A stretch of DNA of 60,000 nucleotides from Aneurinibacillus soli (lineage in GTDB: Bacteria; Bacillota; Bacilli; Aneurinibacillales; Aneurinibacillaceae), in the NCBI RefSeq assembly GCF_002355375.1, contig NZ_AP017312.1, positions 67,501 to 127,500 on the forward strand, given 5' to 3'. Of the stretch, positions 18,856 to 32,805 are shown in pieces; position 1 is the first letter of the stretch, and every line of letters begins with the position of its first letter. A program made the translations under genes and the position numbers. The notes beneath the pieces were generated by a model. That model was not told the DNA's origin. It saw only the letters and a program-made list of their open reading frames with translations, and ran no database searches.

Positions 18856-19770
18856 TTATATCTGTTTTCGACTGAACATTACACCTACCTTTCCAATCCT
18901 CTGAATAGGAACACTAATACATATAAGTAAGAATGCTATAAAATCAACAATAGTTAATCTTTCCCCTACCATTAAAATAATAAAAAGAACAGTAACACAG
19001 GGCGTAAAATAGGTGAAACTTGCAACAAGCGAAGCAGACGAATATTTTAATGCTCTGATATAAATAAGAAATCCAAGAATAATGTTACTTATGCTTAACC
19101 ATAAAAAACCCGAAAAATCGGCTATTGTTGGTACTTTAAATTGGGAAAAAGTAAACAAACTACAAATGGATAAAATAGAAGCTACGAATGTAATGAAAAT
19201 ATTACTTATTACGATGTCTTTACTATTCTTCTTCGCAAGGTTCGTAAAAAGCCCCCAACATACCGCTGCGAATATAGCCATCAAATCGCCTTCTACATTT
19301 GTAAAGCTAATGTTTGTGAACTTCCCCTTCGTGATCAATAAAACGGTACCAGCAAAGCCTAGACCTATTGATATTACCTTATAAACGTCAAGCCTTTCTC
19401 TATTGATAGGAATAGCAAACAGAACAATAAAAATAGGAAATAGATAATTTAACATGGATGCTTCAATAGCCGGTAAGCGTTCAAGTGCCTTGATATATAA
19501 AAAATCATAAAGAAAAGCGAATACTCCACACAATATCAGTAAAACAAAGTCTTTACTTGTCCACGTTAGCAGTTCTCTCGGCTTAACTTTGACTATAAGT
19601 ATTACAGCATAAACTAAAACTGCAATTCCATACATGTAAAACAAAACTTGATAACTGTCGAGATTTTTTAATAATAATTTACTTGTTGCTGCTAAAGACC
19701 CCCACATTAACAATAAAATAGGCATTAAGATAAATGGATTTTTTGTAGCATCAACTTTTTGATTTTTCAT
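18856..19770 (-). CDS. EamA/DMT family transporter
   Basis: A 304-residue membrane protein with ten predicted helices in two EamA repeats. The N-terminal half contains PILLLMWGSLAATSKLLL and ERLPAIEASMLNYLFPIF; the second half has VEGDLMAIFAAVCWGLFTNL. DMT exporters move amino acids or other small metabolites out of the cell. The gene is visibly more A/T-rich than its neighbours and is flanked by relics of an ABC-F ATPase and an AraC-type regulator, which suggests acquisition by transfer. The ribosome binding site (GGGTG) is weak. The substrate is unknown. Confidence 0.85.
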   Translation of the reverse strand: MKNQKVDATKNPFILMPILLLMWGSLAATSKLLLKNLDSYQVLFYMYGIAVLVYAVILIVKVKPRELLTWTSKDFVLLILCGVFAFLYDFLYIKALERLPAIEASMLNYLFPIFIVLFAIPINRERLDVYKVISIGLGFAGTVLLITKGKFTNISFTNVEGDLMAIFAAVCWGLFTNLAKKNSKDIVISNIFITFVASILSICSLFTFSQFKVPTIADFSGFLWLSISNIILGFLIYIRALKYSSASLVASFTYFTPCVTVLFIILMVGERLTIVDFIAFLLICISVPIQRIGKVGVMFSRKQI

Positions 19771-19903: not shown

Positions 19904-21463
19904 CTAGAATGACATGCTGCCGATTCTTTCTTCCACAAGCTTGACGAATTCCCCATGGTGAAGCAGATGGCGGATGTATTCGATATCTGGATAAAAATAT
20001 CGGTCTACTTTAACCGTTGGGACCATGCTACGAATTTTTTGGTAGACGGCCTCCGTGACGGGCGATGGCTTCAACGGCTTATGAAAATCCAGTGCCTGCG
20101 CCGCGGTCATCAATTCAATCGCAAGGATGTACTCCACTTTTTTGGAGATGTGATACGCTTTCTTGGCCGCAAAGTACGCCATGCTCACCTGATCCTCCTG
20201 ATTGGCACTCGTCGAAATGTTGTCAACGGTAGAGGGATGTGACAGCACCTTGATTTCCCCGAGAAGCCCTGCTGCCGTATATTGCGGAATCATATAGCCG
20301 TTGTTCAACCCTGGATTGGCTACAAGAAAGCTTGGGAGCTCGCTATGATGATGATTCACAAGCCGATCGATTCGCCGCTCTGCCATTTTTGCCAAATTGG
20401 CCATTGCAATACACATTGAATCACTGTACATCCCCACATAGGTCCCATCAAAATTCCCTCCCATCAGGGCGATGCCATCGTCGTCCTCTGGGTAAATAAT
20501 CGGATTGTCACCGGTCGATGCCATCTCATTCTCAATCACTTCCCGAGCGTCCTTGAGCAGCTTTTTGCAAGCCCCGTGCAGTTGGGGAATACACCGCAAG
20601 CTGAGCGCATCCTGCAGACGGTGGCTTTTGTATGCCTCTGCGATTTCACTGCCTTCGAGGATGTGCAGGATCGTTTTTGCCGTCGCGGATTGTTCGTCGT
20701 GTTTCTTCACAGCATGCAATCGCGGATCGCACGCTTTTATCGTGCCTTTTAATACTTCAAGAGACATCGCCCCCGCCACATCGGCTGTTTTGACGGCTTG
20801 ACTGGCATTGTACAAGGCTAACGTTGCAAAAGCGGTGACCGAGGTGGTCCCGTTGATCAAAGCCAGCCCTTCCTTGCAGCCGAGCTCAATCGGCTGCAAT
20901 CCCGCTCTGTGCAAAGCCTCTTTTCCTGCCAGCAGTTCTCCTTTATACCATGCCTTCCCTTCCCCGATCAGCACAAGCGCCATATGGGCTTCCGGTGCTA
21001 GATAGCCGACAGAGCCTTCGCCCGGTGCAAACGGAGTGATCTCCTCATTGAGTAGGCTGGCGATCAGCTGAAGCACTTCCAACCGTACGCCCGAGTAACC
21101 TTGTCCAAGACTGACCAGGATCATGAACTGGATGGCCCTTACGATCTCCTTCTCCAGAGGCTCTCCGACGGAAACCGCATGTGAGCGAATAATGTTGTGC
21201 TGCAATGTCGTGGCGTCTTCCGGGGAAATCACCTCAGTGACGTTTTCGCCAAACCCGGTAGTTACGCCATAAATAAGCCGATTCTCCCGCAAAAATCGTT
21301 CAATCAGGCTTCTCGATGCCGCCACCCGATCACAGTACTGTTGCGAGAAAGATACTTTTGCCTTGTAGCGGGCCACCGCCACCATTTCTTCAACCGTAAC
21401 AGGGCCCTCACCCAGCACCACGTGTGTAAGCTCGCTTGGATAACAATGCGCTTCTTGTCCCAT
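19904..21463 (-). CDS. Aromatic amino-acid ammonia-lyase homologue lacking the MIO triad
   Basis: A 519-residue protein of the HAL/PAL/TAL family. The fold and most active-site elements are intact: YGVTTGFG (65-72), IRSHAVSVGEP, LINGTTSV, TGDNPIIY, GGNFDGTYVG and SANQEDQVSM. The segment that should contain Ala-Ser-Gly, precursor of the MIO electrophile, reads GSVGYLAPEAHMALV (150-164): relative to [14 protein letters not shown], ASGD is replaced by a single Tyr. Classical MIO chemistry therefore cannot occur. The ATG at 21463 has AAAGGAAGG upstream; the longer in-frame start lacks support. An MFS transporter gene lies directly upstream on the same strand. Function is unknown: an altered enzyme, a binding protein or a regulator. 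Confidence 0.85.
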   Translation of the reverse strand: MGQEAHCYPSELTHVVLGEGPVTVEEMVAVARYKAKVSFSQQYCDRVAASRSLIERFLRENRLIYGVTTGFGENVTEVISPEDATTLQHNIIRSHAVSVGEPLEKEIVRAIQFMILVSLGQGYSGVRLEVLQLIASLLNEEITPFAPGEGSVGYLAPEAHMALVLIGEGKAWYKGELLAGKEALHRAGLQPIELGCKEGLALINGTTSVTAFATLALYNASQAVKTADVAGAMSLEVLKGTIKACDPRLHAVKKHDEQSATAKTILHILEGSEIAEAYKSHRLQDALSLRCIPQLHGACKKLLKDAREVIENEMASTGDNPIIYPEDDDGIALMGGNFDGTYVGMYSDSMCIAMANLAKMAERRIDRLVNHHHSELPSFLVANPGLNNGYMIPQYTAAGLLGEIKVLSHPSTVDNISTSANQEDQVSMAYFAAKKAYHISKKVEYILAIELMTAAQALDFHKPLKPSPVTEAVYQKIRSMVPTVKVDRYFYPDIEYIRHLLHHGEFVKLVEERIGSMSF

Positions 21464-21565: not shown

Positions 21566-22909
21566 CTATAAAGGCTGTCCCTCATCGTATAATAGGTTGC
21601 TGGCTTCATCCAAGTCCAATGATTTGGTTTCCGGCGCCCACAGGATTGAGACGATGGCGCCGACCACCAAGACAATTGTCATGGCAATCATAGAAACGCC
21701 AACCCCATATCCGTTTAGCACAACAGGTAGCAAAAACGTACCAATTGCAGACCCGACACGGCTGACTGCGGTGACCAATCCTACCCCGGAAGCACGAATC
21801 TCTGTAGGAAAGAGCTCTGCAGGGTACACGAGCGTCAGGTTGGAAGCCGCCGACATGACAAACGTAAATATGGCAAAACAGATAATCAGAAAAACCTTGT
21901 GCGTGTTGTCTATGATGCCAAGCGGCAAGAGCGTGATGGCCAGAATTGCAAACGTGTAAATCGTAAACCCTCTTCGCGAAAACTTCTCCATCAGCCACAG
22001 CCCCGCGATTCCGCCGAGCAGCAGGAAGCCGTTCAGCAGCAAGTCAATCAGAAAACTTTCCTCATACCCCATGCTGCTGAGGATGATCGGCAAGAAGGTG
22101 TAAATCGCAAAATAAGGAATTACGTTGCAGACATAAAACAGACTGCCAAATGTCGTGCGCCTCCACAATCTTTTGCTGAAGAGATCGCGAAAACCGGGTA
22201 GCTTGTCCAATGGTGTAACGTCTTCGATCACCGCATGCGGACTTACGTATTTCTTCACAATTTGCATTGCTTCTTCCTTGCGTCCCATGCTGATCAGCCA
22301 TCTAGGCGACTCCGGCGTACCGATTCGCAGCACCAATACGATGAAAGCAGGGATGGCAGCACTGGCAAGCATCCAACGCCATGATTCGGGACCCATTTTT
22401 TCCAAATAAAAACCGACCACATTGGAGATCACGTATCCAACCGTCCATATCACACATAACGAGGCAAGCAGGAAGCCTCGATACTTTTTCGGGGAGAACT
22501 CGGCCAGCAGCGTCGAGCCAACCGCATAGTCACCACCAAGGCCGATACCAATCAAGATCCGCAATATGAATAGAGTGAGCGGATCATTGACCCAGAACTG
22601 CAGCAGGGAAGCGACACCAATGATGAGGAAGTTGGCCAGAAATATTTTTTGCCTACCAATCCGATCTGAAAGCCAACCGAGCACCAAGCTGCCGATAAAG
22701 AGCCCAATCAAGGCTGAGCTTCCCAGAAGCCCATTCCACATGGGACCGAGATTCATTTGCGTGCCAAGCAACGTGAGCGCCATACCGATAATGCCAAGGG
22801 CATACCCATCCGAGAAATTAGAACCAAAGGTGAGCGCGGTAATCCGCAGATGAAATTTGTTCAGCGGCGCATCATCCATGAGAAATGATTGCGTGTGATG
22901 TGTGTTCAA
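21566..22909 (-). CDS. MFS transporter (aromatic acid/sugar symporter type)
   Basis: A 447-residue transporter with twelve predicted helices. MFS signatures are present in both halves: GWLSDRIGRQKIF after helix 2 (about residue 79), RILIGIGLGGDYAVG, and ELFPTEIRASGVG near residue 358, typical of the aromatic acid:H+ symporter and sugar porter branches. TTG at 22909 is taken as start, because AAAGGAGGGG lies at correct spacing and the next ATG has no ribosome binding site. It is followed about 100 nt later by the MIO-less lyase homologue, implying that the two share a substrate. A cre-like site lies upstream. Confidence 0.85.
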   Translation of the reverse strand: MNTHHTQSFLMDDAPLNKFHLRITALTFGSNFSDGYALGIIGMALTLLGTQMNLGPMWNGLLGSSALIGLFIGSLVLGWLSDRIGRQKIFLANFLIIGVASLLQFWVNDPLTLFILRILIGIGLGGDYAVGSTLLAEFSPKKYRGFLLASLCVIWTVGYVISNVVGFYLEKMGPESWRWMLASAAIPAFIVLVLRIGTPESPRWLISMGRKEEAMQIVKKYVSPHAVIEDVTPLDKLPGFRDLFSKRLWRRTTFGSLFYVCNVIPYFAIYTFLPIILSSMGYEESFLIDLLLNGFLLLGGIAGLWLMEKFSRRGFTIYTFAILAITLLPLGIIDNTHKVFLIICFAIFTFVMSAASNLTLVYPAELFPTEIRASGVGLVTAVSRVGSAIGTFLLPVVLNGYGVGVSMIAMTIVLVVGAIVSILWAPETKSLDLDEASNLLYDEGQPL

Positions 22910-23063: not shown

Positions 23064-23107
23064 AAAAAAAAGGTTAAATCCTTATCTTATGATACAAGAA
23101 TTTAACC
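23064..23107 (-). terminator. Terminator of the hutU-hutI-hutG unit
   Basis: Arms GGTTAAAT and ATTTAACC; on the reverse strand the stem runs into T8. Confidence 0.85.
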
Positions 23108-23127: not shown

Positions 23128-24129
23128 TTACTTTTGATGCTGTGCTTTTCGCTGCATAAACCCTGTCAAAAAGGTAAGCATCACATGGACTCCTGCCTTC
23201 ACCGTAACCTGAGCGATATCACGATACGGGTCAAGGCAGACAATATCCATCGCCTGAACAAGCGGATGGCTTCCAGCCAGATAAACCGCTTCAAACAACT
23301 CATCCGTACGCATTCCCCCAGGAGTTGCAGCCGGAACCCCCGGCGCATAAGCGATATCTAGCACATCCATATCGACCGTGAGATAAATGACATCGACTTT
23401 TCCACTCAGATCATCCAATGCAGCTTGAATCGTAGAAACAATACCTTTTTCTCTCACCTGACGCAGGGTGACATACTGAACCCCTTTTTGATCTGCATAT
23501 TCTTTTAATGATTTCGCGTTATAAAAACCATGCAGCCCTACATTCCACACGTCCTCACCAAGGATCGTACCGCTTTCGATCAAATTGCGAATTGGCGTTC
23601 CATTGCTTGGACCGTTATCCTCAAGACTACGTAAGTCAAAATGAGTATCCAACTGCAAAATTCCAATACGCTGCTCGGGATGAGCCTGTTTCCAGCCTTT
23701 CACAAGCATCGCCGTAATCGAATGATCTCCTCCCAGCATAATCGGAAGTGCATGCGCATGATGCTGGCGCATCGAAACCATAGCGTCTGTGATCCACTGA
23801 TGAGAAAGAGGAATATCGGTTACATGCTGGCGTACGTCTCCTAAATCCAAAATACGCAGCGGAGTTAAATCGATATCATACTCAAGATGGTATGGATTAA
23901 ATGCTTTCCATGCCTGGCGCATCGCCTCCGGATTTTCACTTGCCGCTGATGCGCTAATAGATGAACGGGACAGCGGAACCCCGAGGATGGTTACATCCAC
24001 GGAGCTAAAATCCACTGTTTGTTCCTCACTAGAGAGAGTACGAATCCATTCGTTTACTTTTGGCTCCGCCCCTTGTGCGGCGGACCAGCGAAACGAAGGC
24101 GGCTTAAGCTGGGGATACGGATACTTCAT
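23128..24129 (-). CDS. hutG: Formimidoylglutamase
   Basis: A 333-residue ureohydrolase-fold enzyme, the last step of the histidine route: N-formimidoyl-glutamate to glutamate and formamide. Binuclear manganese ligands appear in GGDHSITA (about residue 140), LQLDTHFDLRS and TVDMDVLDIAYAPGVP. It differs from the arginase at 57.6 kb in these motifs and by its N-terminal extension. The gene overlaps the end of hutI by 26 nt, indicating coupling, and it is followed by a strong terminator. Position directly after hutU and hutI supports the HutG call over agmatinase. Confidence 0.92.
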   Translation of the reverse strand: MKYPYPQLKPPSFRWSAAQGAEPKVNEWIRTLSSEEQTVDFSSVDVTILGVPLSRSSISASAASENPEAMRQAWKAFNPYHLEYDIDLTPLRILDLGDVRQHVTDIPLSHQWITDAMVSMRQHHAHALPIMLGGDHSITAMLVKGWKQAHPEQRIGILQLDTHFDLRSLEDNGPSNGTPIRNLIESGTILGEDVWNVGLHGFYNAKSLKEYADQKGVQYVTLRQVREKGIVSTIQAALDDLSGKVDVIYLTVDMDVLDIAYAPGVPAATPGGMRTDELFEAVYLAGSHPLVQAMDIVCLDPYRDIAQVTVKAGVHVMLTFLTGFMQRKAQHQK

Positions 24130-25408
24130 GAGTCAAACTCCCTTTCTGCACCACAATCTTCCCTGCTTTAATAACAGTATCTACAAGATTCACGCCGTAG
24201 TTATACTGCATGTACGAATAGTTCGGTGCGTCAAATACGACGAGATCAGCTACTTTTCCTTTTTCGAGGCTTCCTACCCGGTGCGCCTGTTTAATCGCAT
24301 GCGCCGCATTAATGGTAGCGGCAACGAGTACCTCAGCAGGTGTCATTCCCATCGTTAGACAGCCGAGATTCATGATGAACGGCATCGATTCACTCGGAGA
24401 AGAACCAGGATTCCGGTCTGTAGACAAGGCAACGGCTACGCCAGCGTCAATCATTTTCCGTCCATTGGCAGCCTCTGCCTTCAAAAAGAAGGCTGTACCT
24501 GGCAGCAAGACCGCAACCACTCCTTTTTCCGCCATCTGCCGGATTCCTTCATCAGATGCCCGCAGAAGGTGATCGGCCGACACAGCTCCCAGACGCGCAG
24601 CCAGTTCCGCCCCCTGATACGGTTCAATCTCATCCGCGTGAATTTTCGGAAGCAGGCCATGCTCCATTCCCGCGCGTAAAATTCTCTCGGACTGTTCCGG
24701 TGTAAACACACCGTGTTCACAAAATACATCATTAAACTGAGCAAGGCCGCTTTTTGCAACTTCCGGAATCATCTCATTTACGAGAATATCAACAAAACGA
24801 TCCGGGTCGTGTTTATACTCAGCAGGCACGGCATGTGCGCCCATAAAGGTAGAGACGATATCGATTGGATGCGTATCCTGAAGTCGCTTCGCTACATGAA
24901 GCTGCTTCATTTCATGTTCTAACGTTAAGCCGTATCCACTTTTTGCTTCCAATGTCGTTACACCGTATTGCAAAAAGCGATTGAGACGCTGGTACGCTTC
25001 CTCATATAAATCTTCTTCACTGGCAGCCTGCGTTGCGCGCGTTGTATTATGAATGCCGCCGCCTGCATTCATAATCTCCATATATGTCTTGCCAGCCAGG
25101 CGCATTTCAAATTCATTTTCCCGACTTCCGGCAAATACCAGATGAGTATGCGGATCAATTAGCCCTGGTGTCACTACTTTTCCTGATGCATCGATCACAT
25201 GAGCTTCTTGCATACGATCCCGATAAAAAGCAGTCACAACCTCATCCCGATCTACCATCTGGATGGAACCGTCTTCAATCCAGACGGCTCCATCTTCAAT
25301 AATGTGTAAAGTGCTCATGGCTGTTCCTGTTACCGGTTGTGCAGATGTTCCTTGAAGTGTAACAAGCTGGGCTGCATGACGAAGCAGAATCGGTTTTTGT
25401 TTCATCAT
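24104..25408 (-). CDS. hutI: Imidazolonepropionase
   Basis: A 434-residue amidohydrolase-fold enzyme that opens 4-imidazolone-5-propionate to N-formimidoyl-glutamate. Metal-binding motifs are visible: TPGLIDPHTHLVFAG (about residue 77), a His in GAHAVP, and ALSTDRNPGSSP with the conserved Asp near residue 328. GGAGGATT precedes tandem ATGs, with the first used here. It lies 8 nt after hutU and overlaps hutG, a tight three-gene unit. Confidence 0.95.
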   Translation of the reverse strand: MMKQKPILLRHAAQLVTLQGTSAQPVTGTAMSTLHIIEDGAVWIEDGSIQMVDRDEVVTAFYRDRMQEAHVIDASGKVVTPGLIDPHTHLVFAGSRENEFEMRLAGKTYMEIMNAGGGIHNTTRATQAASEEDLYEEAYQRLNRFLQYGVTTLEAKSGYGLTLEHEMKQLHVAKRLQDTHPIDIVSTFMGAHAVPAEYKHDPDRFVDILVNEMIPEVAKSGLAQFNDVFCEHGVFTPEQSERILRAGMEHGLLPKIHADEIEPYQGAELAARLGAVSADHLLRASDEGIRQMAEKGVVAVLLPGTAFFLKAEAANGRKMIDAGVAVALSTDRNPGSSPSESMPFIMNLGCLTMGMTPAEVLVAATINAAHAIKQAHRVGSLEKGKVADLVVFDAPNYSYMQYNYGVNLVDTVIKAGKIVVQKGSLTHEVSVSPA

Positions 25409-25416
25409 AATCCTCC

Positions 25417-27087
25417 TTAGCTTCGTAACATCGGAATATGAACGCCTTTATTTTTCGCTGTTTCAATTGCCAGTTCATAGCCTGCATCTGCGTGACGAAC
25501 AACTCCCATACCCGGGTCTGAAGTTAATACGCGTTCGAGGCGTTTTTCTGCCGCTTCTGTTCCGTCAGCTACAATAACCATTCCGGCATGCAGGGAGTAT
25601 CCCATACCTACACCACCACCGTGATGGACAGATACCCAGCTTGCGCCACCTACCGCATTAATCATAGCGTTAAGGATCGGCCAGTCAGCTACAGCATCAC
25701 TGCCATCACGCATTGCTTCTGTTTCCCGGTTTGGCGATGCCACGGAACCGGAATCAAGATGGTCACGTCCAATTACAATCGGTGCTTTTAATTCACCGTT
25801 GCGTACCATGTCATTGATGATTTTCGCAAAACGTGCGCGTTCTCCATACCCTAACCAGCAAATGCGGGAAGGAAGTCCCTGGAATGCGATGCGTTCCTGA
25901 GCCATTTTGATCCAGCGGCAAAGGTGCTCATTATAGGCGAATTCGCGTAAGATCACTTCATCTGTTTTGTAAATATCTTCTGGATCACCAGACAGAGCAA
26001 CCCAGCGGAATGGTCCTTTCCCTTCACAGAATTGGGGACGAATATACGCCGGTACGAATCCTGGGAATGCAAATGCATTTTCTACCCCTTCGTCCAATGC
26101 AACCTGACGAATGTTATTGCCATAGTCAAAGGCAACCGCACCTTTTGCCTGCATATCTAAAATGGCCTGAACATGTACAGCCATGCTCGCCTTAGAACGC
26201 TTTACATACTCTTCCGGATCAGCAGCACGAAGCTTCGCCCCTTCTTCCAGCGTCATGTTTGCAGGCAGGTATCCATTTAAAGGATCGTGCGCTGATGTCT
26301 GATCGGTAATAACATCCGGGATAAAGTTTCGCTGAAGCATTTCCGGCAAGATTTCAGCCGCATTTCCTAAGAGACCAATGGAAAGGGCACGCCCTTCTTG
26401 TTTCGCTTTTTCCGCAAGCTCAATCGCTTCATCCAGCGTTTCCACGAGTACATCGCAATAACGAGTTTCGATACGTTTTTCGATGCGTGTGCGATCCACA
26501 TCAATTCCGATCACAACCCCATCATTCATCGTAACCGCTAACGGTTGAGCGCCACCCATTCCGCCTAACCCTGCTGTAACTGTGATGGTTCCTTTCAGAC
26601 TGCCGCCAAAATGCTGTTTCGCACACTCTGCGAATGTTTCATACGTTCCTTGCACAATCCCTTGACTTCCGATATAAATCCAGCTGCCAGCCGTCATTTG
26701 TCCGTACATCATGAGACCCTTTTTATCAAGCTCATGGAAATGATCCCAATTTGCCCAGGCTGGAACTAAATTCGAATTTGCAAGCAGCACACGCGGAGCA
26801 TCTGGATGAGACTTGAACACCGCGACCGGTTTTCCAGACTGTACAAGCATCGTTTCGTCATCTTCCAGGTTTTTCAGTGTGTGAACAATCGCATCGAAGC
26901 TTTCCCAGTTACGAGCCGCTCTTCCAATTCCCCCATATACAACAAGGTCCTCAGGCCATTCTGCAACTTCCGGGTCGAGGTTGTTGAAAAGCATGCGCAG
27001 CGCTGCCTCCTGAACCCACCCTTTTGTATTTAACTCCGTTCCGTGTGGAGCTCGGTATACTCTTTTTTGTCCTGTTGTTTTCTTCAA
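25417..27087 (-). CDS. hutU: Urocanate hydratase
   Basis: A 556-residue cytoplasmic enzyme that hydrates urocanate to imidazolonepropionate using tightly bound NAD as electrophile. Family hallmarks include the N-terminal [18 protein letters not shown], the Rossmann glycine stretch [16 protein letters not shown] (about residue 172), [14 protein letters not shown] and [13 protein letters not shown] near residue 490. The start is TTG, with GGGAGTGA 6 nt upstream. It is the first gene of hutU-hutI-hutG and has its own upstream gap of 143 nt with a strong cre match. Confidence 0.96.
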
Positions 27088-31162: not shown

Positions 31163-32686
31163 TTATACAGTGAGTTCCTTAGGAGTTTGTTTGATTACCT
31201 GGTTAACGTCTGTTGCTTTTAAAAATTGGTCAACAGCGTTGATATCCTTAGAAAAAATACGATCTTTTGTCATTGCCGGAGTAACGGTCCGCGCCATTGT
31301 ATGGAATTGCTTAGTTATCGATGCTGTCTTCTCTACACCGCGATACTCAACCGCCTGGAGCGCGCATATTAATTCGATCGCCAGCACCTTACGGCAATTG
31401 AGAATCACTTGATACGCATGACGCGCACCGATCGTTCCCATGCTTACATGATCTTCCTGGTTGGCGGATGACGGAATCGAATCTACGCTGGCCGGATGGG
31501 CGAGTGTTTTGTTTTCAGAAACAAGTGCTGCTGCGCAATACTGCAAAATCATCGCCCCTGACTGTACACCTGGCTGTGGGCTCAAAAACGGTGGCAGATC
31601 ATTCAACTGCGGATTCACAAGTCGCTCGATACGTCGCTCTGAAATATTCGCAAACTCAGCCATGGCAATCGCTAAAAAGTCCATCGCAAAGGCAATCGGC
31701 TGGCCGTGGAAGTTTCCGCCTGAAATCACCTTTTCACCGTCATCAAAAATGAGCGGATTATCTGTAGCAGCGTTGATCTCAATTTCCAGCTTTTCTTTCA
31801 CGTAATTAAGTGCTTGCCAGGATGCCCCATGTACTTGTGGAATGCAGCGAAGCGAATATGCGTCCTGCACACGAAGTTCCCCTTGTCGGGTAATCAGCTT
31901 ACTATCAGCTACGTAGCTGCGAATGCGCTCTGCTACCGCGATTTGCTCCGGATAGCCGCGTACGATTTGTACTTCTTCTGCAAACGCATCGATGATGCCG
32001 CGCAATCCTTCCAGCGTCAGCGAAGCGATTAACTCTGATTGATACGCAAGCTGCTCCGCTTCTAAATATGCCACAACGCCCATCGCTGTCATAGCCTGCG
32101 TTCCGTTAATAAGAGCCAGCCCTTCCTTCGCTGTTAGCACAAGAGGCGTAATTCCTTCTTTCTGTAGTGCAGTGAGTGACGGAACGATTTCTCCTTTATA
32201 AAACACTTCCCCTTCTCCAATAAGAGCGAGAGTCAAATGAGAAAGAGGCGCTAAATCACCACTCGCACCAAGCGATCCTTGCTGAGGCACGACAGGGTGG
32301 ATCTGCTTATTTAACAGGGCAAGCAAGCAGTCAATTACCTGACGACGTACACCGGAGTGTCCTTTAAGCAGAGCATTCGCTCGCAACAGAAGCATTGCCC
32401 GCGATACGATTTCCGGAAATGGTTCGCCAACGCCGCAAGCGTGACTCCGAATCAAATTGAGCTGCAAACTCTCTACATCTTTTTGATCAATCACAACATC
32501 ACTTAGTTTGCCAAATCCTGTGTTAATTCCATATGCTACGCGATTTTCTGCCACAATTTTTTCAACGGCTCGCCGACTAGCATCTACACGTGCTAAACTT
32601 TCTGCTGAAGCTACCACCTTTTCATTATCGTACAAAACGGCTTTCACATCCGCCAATGTGAGTGAATGTCCTTTTACTGTAATCAT
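31163..32686 (-). CDS. hutH: Histidine ammonia-lyase
   Basis: A 507-residue enzyme converting L-histidine to urocanate and ammonia. The MIO-forming triad Ala141-Ser142-Gly143 is intact in [15 protein letters not shown], with YGINTGFG (52-59), [15 protein letters not shown] and [11 protein letters not shown] also present. The ATG at 32686 is chosen because AAGGAGG lies before it and the length then equals the family norm; the longer in-frame reading starts within the terminator tail. It follows a HutP-type antitermination region and leads a two-gene transcript with the permease. It is the canonical counterpart of the MIO-less homologue at 19.9 kb. Confidence 0.96.
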
Positions 32687-32710
32687 CTGTTCCAGCCTCC
32701 TTTTTTTATA

Positions 32711-32805
32711 CAAAAAGGGGACTGCATACACTTAAATAGAGCGAAAAAATCGCTTTCTTTAAGAAATATGCAGCCCCCTGATTTCTACTTACCAACTATG
32801 GGCTA
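32711..32805 (-). promoter_or_regulatory. hut leader: HutP-type antiterminator/terminator region
   Basis: On the reverse strand UAG triplets at 32803-32805, 32796-32798 and 32785-32787, then CAG at 32778-32780, are spaced by 4, 8 and 4 nt; HutP binds NAG triplets with 4-nt spacing. They abut an intrinsic terminator (32711-32781) with arms GGGGGCTGCATA and TATGCAGTCCCC followed by TTTTTG. HutP with histidine is expected to open this terminator and allow hutH expression. Confidence 0.75.

Follow-up and report, generated by a model that had tools for sequence, protein, structure and literature searches.

The 60,000 nucleotides of the Aneurinibacillus soli genome analysed here (the window) encode a homolog of histidine ammonia-lyase (HAL), called HALx below, from which the MIO-forming Ala-Ser-Gly triad is missing. 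Judging by its active-site residues and its gene context, HALx is probably a MIO-free trimethylamine-lyase that converts hercynine to urocanate, feeding HutU, HutI and HutG. Hercynine is the precursor of ergothioneine, and no hercynine-degrading lyase was described in the literature searched, from which subscription papers were mostly excluded. The HALx subfamily and its predicted hercynine substrate would be new, while the MIO-less trimethylamine-lyase as a kind of enzyme appears to be already known in ergothionase.

The HALx reading frame (21463-19904, minus strand) starts with ATG and has 519 residues, a stop codon and no internal stop, so the first-pass annotation was right to call it intact. 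The DNA at 21016-20984 (ggc tct gtc ggc tat cta gca ccg gaa gcc cat) translates as GSVGYLAPEAH, and both DNA and translation bear out the earlier statement that Ala-Ser-Gly-Asp is reduced to one tyrosine: Tyr154 stands for these four residues of the MIO loop, and Glu158 for Leu149 of P. putida HAL. The source genome, a single contig of 4.12 Mb, has two PF00221 matches, HALx and an ordinary HutH. The latter (31163-32731, minus strand) retains Ala-Ser-Gly in its 14-residue loop segment and is the internal control within the window that the annotation had said it was. In P. putida HAL numbering, which is used below unless stated otherwise, all 15 rows of the HALx clade have Tyr at the Ala142 position and gaps at 143-145, and the Brevibacillus protein L039 shows the loop variant GSVAY. 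The refuting case that had been put forward, in which every homolog would carry Ala-Ser-Gly and the loss would be a local deletion or assembly error, is contradicted by this short loop in 15 of 15 rows. The dN/dS of the gene is about 0.10 against both L004 (0.0152/0.146) and L039 (0.124/1.23), the two pairs on which the ratio rests, dS being saturated against L005 and L040. An assembly error or a pseudogene is excluded by the intact frame, by the same loss in relatives at 97%, 81% and 75% identity, and by this dN/dS.

The clade of 15 rows (14 distinct, as L005 and L044 are identical in sequence) draws on Bacilli, Lachnospiraceae, Neomarinimicrobiota and one deltaproteobacterium. HALx matched 29 of the 61 genomes comprising the source genome and its relatives, and the only close matches beyond the source genome in that set were L004 (same genus, 97%) and L005 (same family, 75%), both with the short loop. 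An alignment scan of genome contigs with the loop region returned 12 loci: one in Brevibacillus, six in Paenibacillus, one in Aneurinibacillus, one in a Neomarinimicrobiota metagenome-assembled genome (MAG), two in Lachnospiraceae MAGs and one on a deltaproteobacterial plasmid. The triad was lost in all 12. In one of the Lachnospiraceae MAGs (L048, 222-1764) HALx is broken into a pair of frames that overlap (434 and 107 amino acids), probably through a sequencing error of the MAG, and the gene is whole in L049. In an even draw of 398 Bacillota genomes, a match at E ≤ 1e-132 was obtained for 11: the source genome and ten others, whose matches carried Ala-Ser-Gly or Ser-Ser-Gly. The gene therefore appears patchy, since a close relative was found only in the source genome of the 398.

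In trees inferred from an alignment stripped of the loop and of six active-site columns, a branch with support 99 set the 15 clade rows apart from all others, and for the 14 distinct rows the support was 100. The ergothionase rows formed a separate group (support 99-100). Constraining the MIO-less proteins to one single group gave p-AU values of 0.619 for the first tree and 0.268 for the larger row set, and a single origin of MIO loss across the MIO-less types is neither shown nor rejected. A single group of lyases with the GSVGY loop had support 89, dropping to 48 with more rows. The proposal that HALx is a conserved protein forming a clade with its own neighbors thus found backing in the trees and in the context of major facilitator (MFS) and hut genes in Bacilli, and a chemistry different from that of HAL, PAL and TAL is supported too.

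Tyr53, His83, Gln277 and Arg283 are kept in all 15 clade rows and Glu414 in 14, the remaining row being incomplete. Ala-Ser-Gly is absent from every row, and His330 is replaced by Asp in every row; Tyr280 is Leu in 13 (Leu287 in the window protein), with Tyr retained in L033 and L047, and Asn195 is Ser in seven, with Asn kept in the window protein (Asn204). Both Tyr280 and Asn195 were found in 44 of 44 MIO-type rows. The first-pass inventory of the active site was correct for the motifs it named (YGVTTGFG, NGT, TGDNP and NQEDQ are all present) but overlooked that Tyr280 has become Leu287 and that seven of the 15 rows have Ser for the Asn of NGT. No new electrophile-forming motif was recognised in HALx, nor is there evidence for a GFP-like cyclisation of its Gly-Tyr-Leu. 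We take the HAL residues that act on the leaving group, ring, carboxylate and beta proton to have the same roles at the aligned HALx positions; the residues lost are then those serving the amino leaving group and those kept serve ring, carboxylate and beta proton, as would be expected if the leaving group were already a good one. An AlphaFold2 model of HALx (mean pLDDT 81.8, pTM 0.87) has the full-length HAL fold, with TM 0.87 to P. putida HAL and 0.81-0.82 to ergothionase, and VIA-align Z scores of 38.6 with 1gkj (488 residues, rmsd 2.9) and 35.7 with 6s7j (477 residues, rmsd 3.4). The model shows a monomer of a tetrameric fold and has low confidence at loops 66-74, 323-337, 375-387 and 418-422, which contain or flank residues of the active site; no detail of that site is gained from it.

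The ring pocket of the clade is HAL-like. Met382 and Tyr386 are present in all 15 rows (Met391 and Tyr395 in the window protein), as in 41 and 38, respectively, of the 44 MIO-type rows. Met382 is also found in L035, L113, L110, L111 and L112. The four ergothionase rows have Gly, Ser or Cys at 382 and Lys386, which we presume binds the thione. L076 has Ala at position 382 and a thiourocanate hydratase in its neighborhood (1031.1 bits, cut-off 930). L034 has Gln there; the hydratase adjoining it is truncated at the end of the locus and comes closest to the S-methyl thiourocanate model, scoring 840.8 bits where the cut-off is 880. A HAL-like pocket thus seems to accompany urocanase, or other hut genes, wherever a locus shows any, and an altered pocket appears to accompany 2-thio substrates. 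No urocanase lay within the fetched flanks of L033 and L047.

On the minus strand of the window the gene order is hutP, hutH, an amino-acid permease gene, hutD, a response regulator gene with an AraC-type domain, hutU, hutI, hutG, the MFS gene, HALx and an EamA transporter gene (Table 1). The window HutU scored 706.8 bits with the thiourocanate hydratase model, below its cut-off of 930. The hairpin after hutG suggests that the MFS gene and HALx form a transcript of their own, and such sites are weak evidence, as the consensus scan found 12 against 14.5 expected in shuffles. The MFS protein, which may import the HALx substrate, scored best with the NCBIfam models for aromatic-acid/H+ symport (194.6 bits) and cation transport (174.8 bits), both below cut-off, and these scores do not tell its substrate. 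No OpuAC gene was found in the source genome. The ergothioneine-sulfonate route uses a molybdopterin reductase, and PF00384 had three matches in the source genome, none of them inside the window. The EamA gene downstream of HALx (18856-19770, minus strand) has a G+C content of 0.32, compared with 0.47-0.52 in the adjacent genes, and had no BLAST match in the 13 loci compared, a set that does not include L004; it was probably acquired and is probably no member of the HALx unit.

Table 1. Features of the HALx region and the ordinary HutH gene in the window
Feature	Position	Strand	Remarks
HALx, MIO-less lyase, predicted hercynine trimethylamine-lyase	19904..21463	-	519 aa; PF00221 588.9 bits; loop without Ala-Ser-Gly; clade of 15 rows
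Loop GSVGYLAPEAH, residues 150-160	20984..21016	-	replaces the 14-residue segment of HutH
MFS transporter (Sugar_tr/MFS_1)	21566..22909	-	directly upstream of HALx; same neighbor in L005, L039-L046
Terminator-like hairpin after hutG	23072..23107	-	14 pairs, T8; consensus scan
HutG-type formimidoylglutamase (arginase family)	23128..24129	-	Pfam Arginase; TIGR01227 228.9 bits, cut-off 229.15 (0.3 bits short)
HutI imidazolonepropionase	24104..25408	-	TIGR01224 500.9 bits, cut-off 298.15
HutU urocanase	25417..27087	-	TIGR01228 1003.7 bits; sole PF01175 match of the genome (G000)
Ordinary HutH	31163..32731	-	TIGR01225 727.7 bits, cut-off 539.15

The same association was seen in relatives. All eight Bacilli scan loci have genes for the MFS protein, HALx, an AraC-type regulator, HutU and HutI, in this order and on one strand, seven of the eight with hutG between the regulator gene and hutU, and hutH was absent from the fetched flanks of all eight. 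The AraC-type regulators of L005, L040, L041 and L045 were supported by Pfam, and a glutamate dehydrogenase gene follows the L040 cluster. At the Lachnospiraceae locus (L048/L108), a urocanase gene (448 bits, cut-off 375), hutI and a gene with a formiminotransferase-cyclodeaminase domain are near HALx. HutU was tested from the window, L039, L040, L043, L044 and L045: with the hutU model these six proteins reached 995-1015 bits, while with those for thiourocanate and S-methyl thiourocanate hydratase they fell below the cut-offs; G063, G064, G065 and G066 each have a single urocanase match, adjoining HALx. Because the adjoining HutU proteins are urocanases by model, the product of HALx should be urocanate, a conclusion that the context supports well. 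The gene neighborhood points to the product and says nothing about the leaving group. Elsewhere in G068, a second hutU-like urocanase gene (L107, 9069-10826; 73% to the window HutU) adjoins ABC transporter genes that look to be of branched-chain type, and no lyase was recognised across 19 kb.

Of the 13 genomes searched, among which G007 and G066 are apparently one and the same, 10 encode a triad-bearing PF00221 protein at another site. HALx is the only PF00221 match in G070 and in the draft assembly G065, and G067 has ergothionases, broken PF00221 pieces and a protein (L072) with Ala-Cys-Gly in place of Ala-Ser-Gly (GSVGACGDLAP). The pieces, three partial matches in series on contig C183 (2252-4707), are perhaps a broken or recombined lyase gene.

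The first-pass annotation had assumed that all relatives need MIO, and a relative that does without it disposes of this premise: the ergothionase of T. denticola (PDB 6s7j) eliminates trimethylamine from ergothioneine without MIO (PMC13405746). In all four ergothionase rows, 6s7j and three from Paenibacillus, the Ser of Ala-Ser-Gly is missing, residue 280 is Leu, residue 195 is Ser and residue 330 is Asp or Glu. The Paenibacillus protein L079 scored 505 bits with 6s7j and 224 bits with the best HAL, and around it (L101), on the same strand, are genes for thiourocanate hydratase, thiohydantoin desulfurase and the ErtD- and ErtE-type hydrolases that belong to ergothioneine use, all above NCBIfam cut-offs, together with an OpuAC gene. 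The hydratases beside ergothionase in L101, L102 and L103 all exceed the thiourocanate hydratase cut-off. The Paenibacillus genome that carries L079 (G062) encodes a HutH, this true ergothionase with a thiourocanate hydratase (1022.9 bits, cut-off 930), and HALx with a urocanase, and these three paralogs in three contexts suggest that HALx serves a third substrate. Two further MIO-less forms were seen. The Brevibacillus lyase L076 (locus L104), with the loop GSLGV-GDLQPM, is 44% identical to the window HutH and falls outside the ergothionase group in the tree, and an OpuAC gene accompanies the thiourocanate hydratase gene near it; it is perhaps a separate MIO loss. Lyases of Rhizobium pRL12 (L038, 4977-6482; L116, 5950-7455) have the loop GSIGA-ADLAPL, with Arg taking the place of His83 and Val that of Asn195, as well as Ala382 and Lys386, and adjoin a gene annotated as of the ornithine cyclodeaminase family and, in L038, also one annotated as glycine betaine substrate-binding.

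Hercynine has been reported as histidine betaine in a cyanobacterium (PMC3826126). Genes for OpuAC-type (glycine betaine) binding proteins adjoin GSVGY lyases in L034, L035/L113 (Klebsiella) and L111 (Sinorhizobium), with hutU or hutF also adjoining in L035/L113 and L111, which places a betaine transporter at three (L034, L035 and L111) of the five distinct loci that have a GSVGY lyase outside the clade. At L110 (Rhizobium, GSAGY) the transporter is an amino-acid-type ABC transporter, and the flanks of L112, despite its Met382, have by annotation neither a betaine transporter nor hut genes other than the lyase. Beside the lyase at the clade loci no OpuAC gene was recognised, with most unnamed flank frames outside the search. 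The operon on the Klebsiella pneumoniae plasmids (L035/L113) comprises the GSVGY lyase, hutU, hutI, a HutF-like deiminase gene, hutC, hutD and an OpuAC-type ABC transporter. A protein at least 95% identical to L035 occurred in 163 of 895 matching plasmid records, of which the eight among the matches listed were K. pneumoniae, in plasmid collections that are unevenly sampled. PF10017, which we take to be the EgtD family, had no match above cut-off in any of 10 genomes, with weak partial matches below it in three, so hercynine would probably be imported.

HALx would be a beta-eliminating lyase acting on a quaternary-ammonium derivative of histidine whose imidazole ring is unsubstituted, the likeliest being hercynine (N-alpha-trimethylhistidine, histidine betaine). 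With hercynine as the substrate, as we infer, the MFS protein would import the betaine, His95 and Glu423 (window numbering in this paragraph) would bind its imidazole, and Arg290 would bind its carboxylate. Tyr65 would take the beta proton and trimethylamine would depart unaided, so that MIO, Tyr280 and Asn195 (P. putida numbers), whose task is to assist NH2 as a poor leaving group, could be dispensed with. Room and charge for the trimethylammonium group may come from the shortened loop, Leu287 and the conserved Asp339. Urocanate would then be taken to glutamate by the adjacent HutU, HutI and HutG.

Other readings of the same evidence were weighed. HALx could be a MIO-free lyase that forms urocanate from some other activated form of histidine whose imidazole is unmodified, such as one bearing two methyl groups or another alkyl substituent on its alpha-amino group, or a hydroxy analogue in activated form. 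This is unlikely, though it has in its favor that urocanate as the product is better supported than the leaving group, that the Bacilli HALx loci carry an MFS gene and no recognised betaine ABC transporter, and that the transporter at L110 is of the amino-acid type; trimethylamine, however, is what the MIO-less relative of solved structure releases, and the transporters at the Klebsiella and Sinorhizobium GSVGY loci are of the betaine type. We know of no natural dimethyl or hydroxy histidine substrate for these bacteria. A pseudoenzyme, which could act as a sensor or a binding protein or partner HutH allosterically, would fit the loss of MIO and, mostly, of Tyr280, the AraC-type regulator gene next to HALx in Bacilli, and the triad-bearing protein elsewhere in 10 of 13 genomes. 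Such a role is very improbable, given that the catalytic base and the imidazole and carboxylate residues are retained across the clade, that the draft genome G065 has no other PF00221 match, and that ergothionase is active despite the same losses. Nothing was seen in favor of the binding protein, sensor or enzyme with another electrophile that the first-pass annotation had suggested; an eliminating enzyme without an electrophile is favored because the base, imidazole and carboxylate positions are kept and the context is that of hut genes.

HALx was rejected as an ergothionase proper on its residues, separate clade and operon content, and we give a lyase for ergothioneine or S-methyl-ergothioneine as little credence as a pseudoenzyme. 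The active-site losses are of the same kind as in 6s7j, and the GSVGY-loop lyase L034 has beside it the hydratase closest to the S-methyl thiourocanate model, but HALx has Met382 and Tyr386 and low identity to 6s7j, it is urocanase and not thiourocanate hydratase that adjoins it, and G062 holds a separate true ergothionase. Deamination of free histidine, with another electrophile or none, is hardly to be believed: HutH is the top-scoring named family, and in G065 hutU, hutI and hutG lie beside HALx with no HutH match, yet the triad-bearing protein kept in 10 of 13 genomes, the loss of precisely the ammonia-side residues and the want of a recognised new electrophile-forming motif all speak against it.

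A trimethylamine-lyase for hercynine would at present go unnoticed in annotation. HALx scored 579.5 bits and L039 574.4 bits with the NCBIfam hutH model TIGR01225, and because the cut-off of 539.15 is passed, both would be named histidine ammonia-lyase; L049 of the clade (494.2) and L035 (499.4), L111 (465.1) and L034 (427.3) fall below it. We lean somewhat towards an undescribed hercynine pathway hidden by HutH annotation, in which uptake by an MFS or betaine ABC transporter would be followed by a MIO-free lyase and HutU, HutI and HutG or HutF, in Paenibacillaceae and relatives, a few anaerobes, rhizobia and many Klebsiella plasmids, with loss of the triad in PF00221 marking trimethylamine-lyases and residue 382 telling the ring substituent. 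If true, this would give a simple sequence rule separating trimethylamine-lyases from ammonia-lyases, correct a set of HutH annotations, point to a possible source of trimethylamine on Klebsiella plasmids, and provide a natural experiment on the HAL active site in which the leaving-group parts are separated from the ring and carboxylate parts.

Compared with HutH (P. putida HAL, 1b8f, and the window HutH), HALx has the same fold, 38-40% identity, Met382, His83 and Glu414, a hut context and the same expected product, but it is without the MIO triad and has Leu for Tyr280, Asp for His330 and Glu for Leu149, with Asn195 variable in the clade. The GSVGY lyases L035, L113 and L111 share with HALx the loss of three loop residues, Leu280, Met382 and adjoining hut genes; they differ in being 37-41% identical to it, in having Gly or Asn195 and Gly or Ala329, and in carrying a betaine-type ABC transporter where the HALx loci carry an MFS gene. 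With the T. denticola ergothionase (6s7j/6s7q), HALx shares the PF00221 fold, the absence of Ala-Ser-Gly and MIO, Leu280, an acidic residue 330, the conserved Tyr53, His83, Gln277, Arg283 and Glu414 and, in seven of 15 rows, Ser195. The two are only 26.9% identical (HALx against 6s7j), the ergothionase loop (SSIGE-GDIT) is one residue shorter than that of HAL whereas that of HALx (GSVGY---L) is three shorter, Gly382 and Lys386 of 6s7j correspond to Met and Tyr in HALx, and Paenibacillus ergothionase operons encode thiourocanate hydratase where HALx operons encode urocanase.
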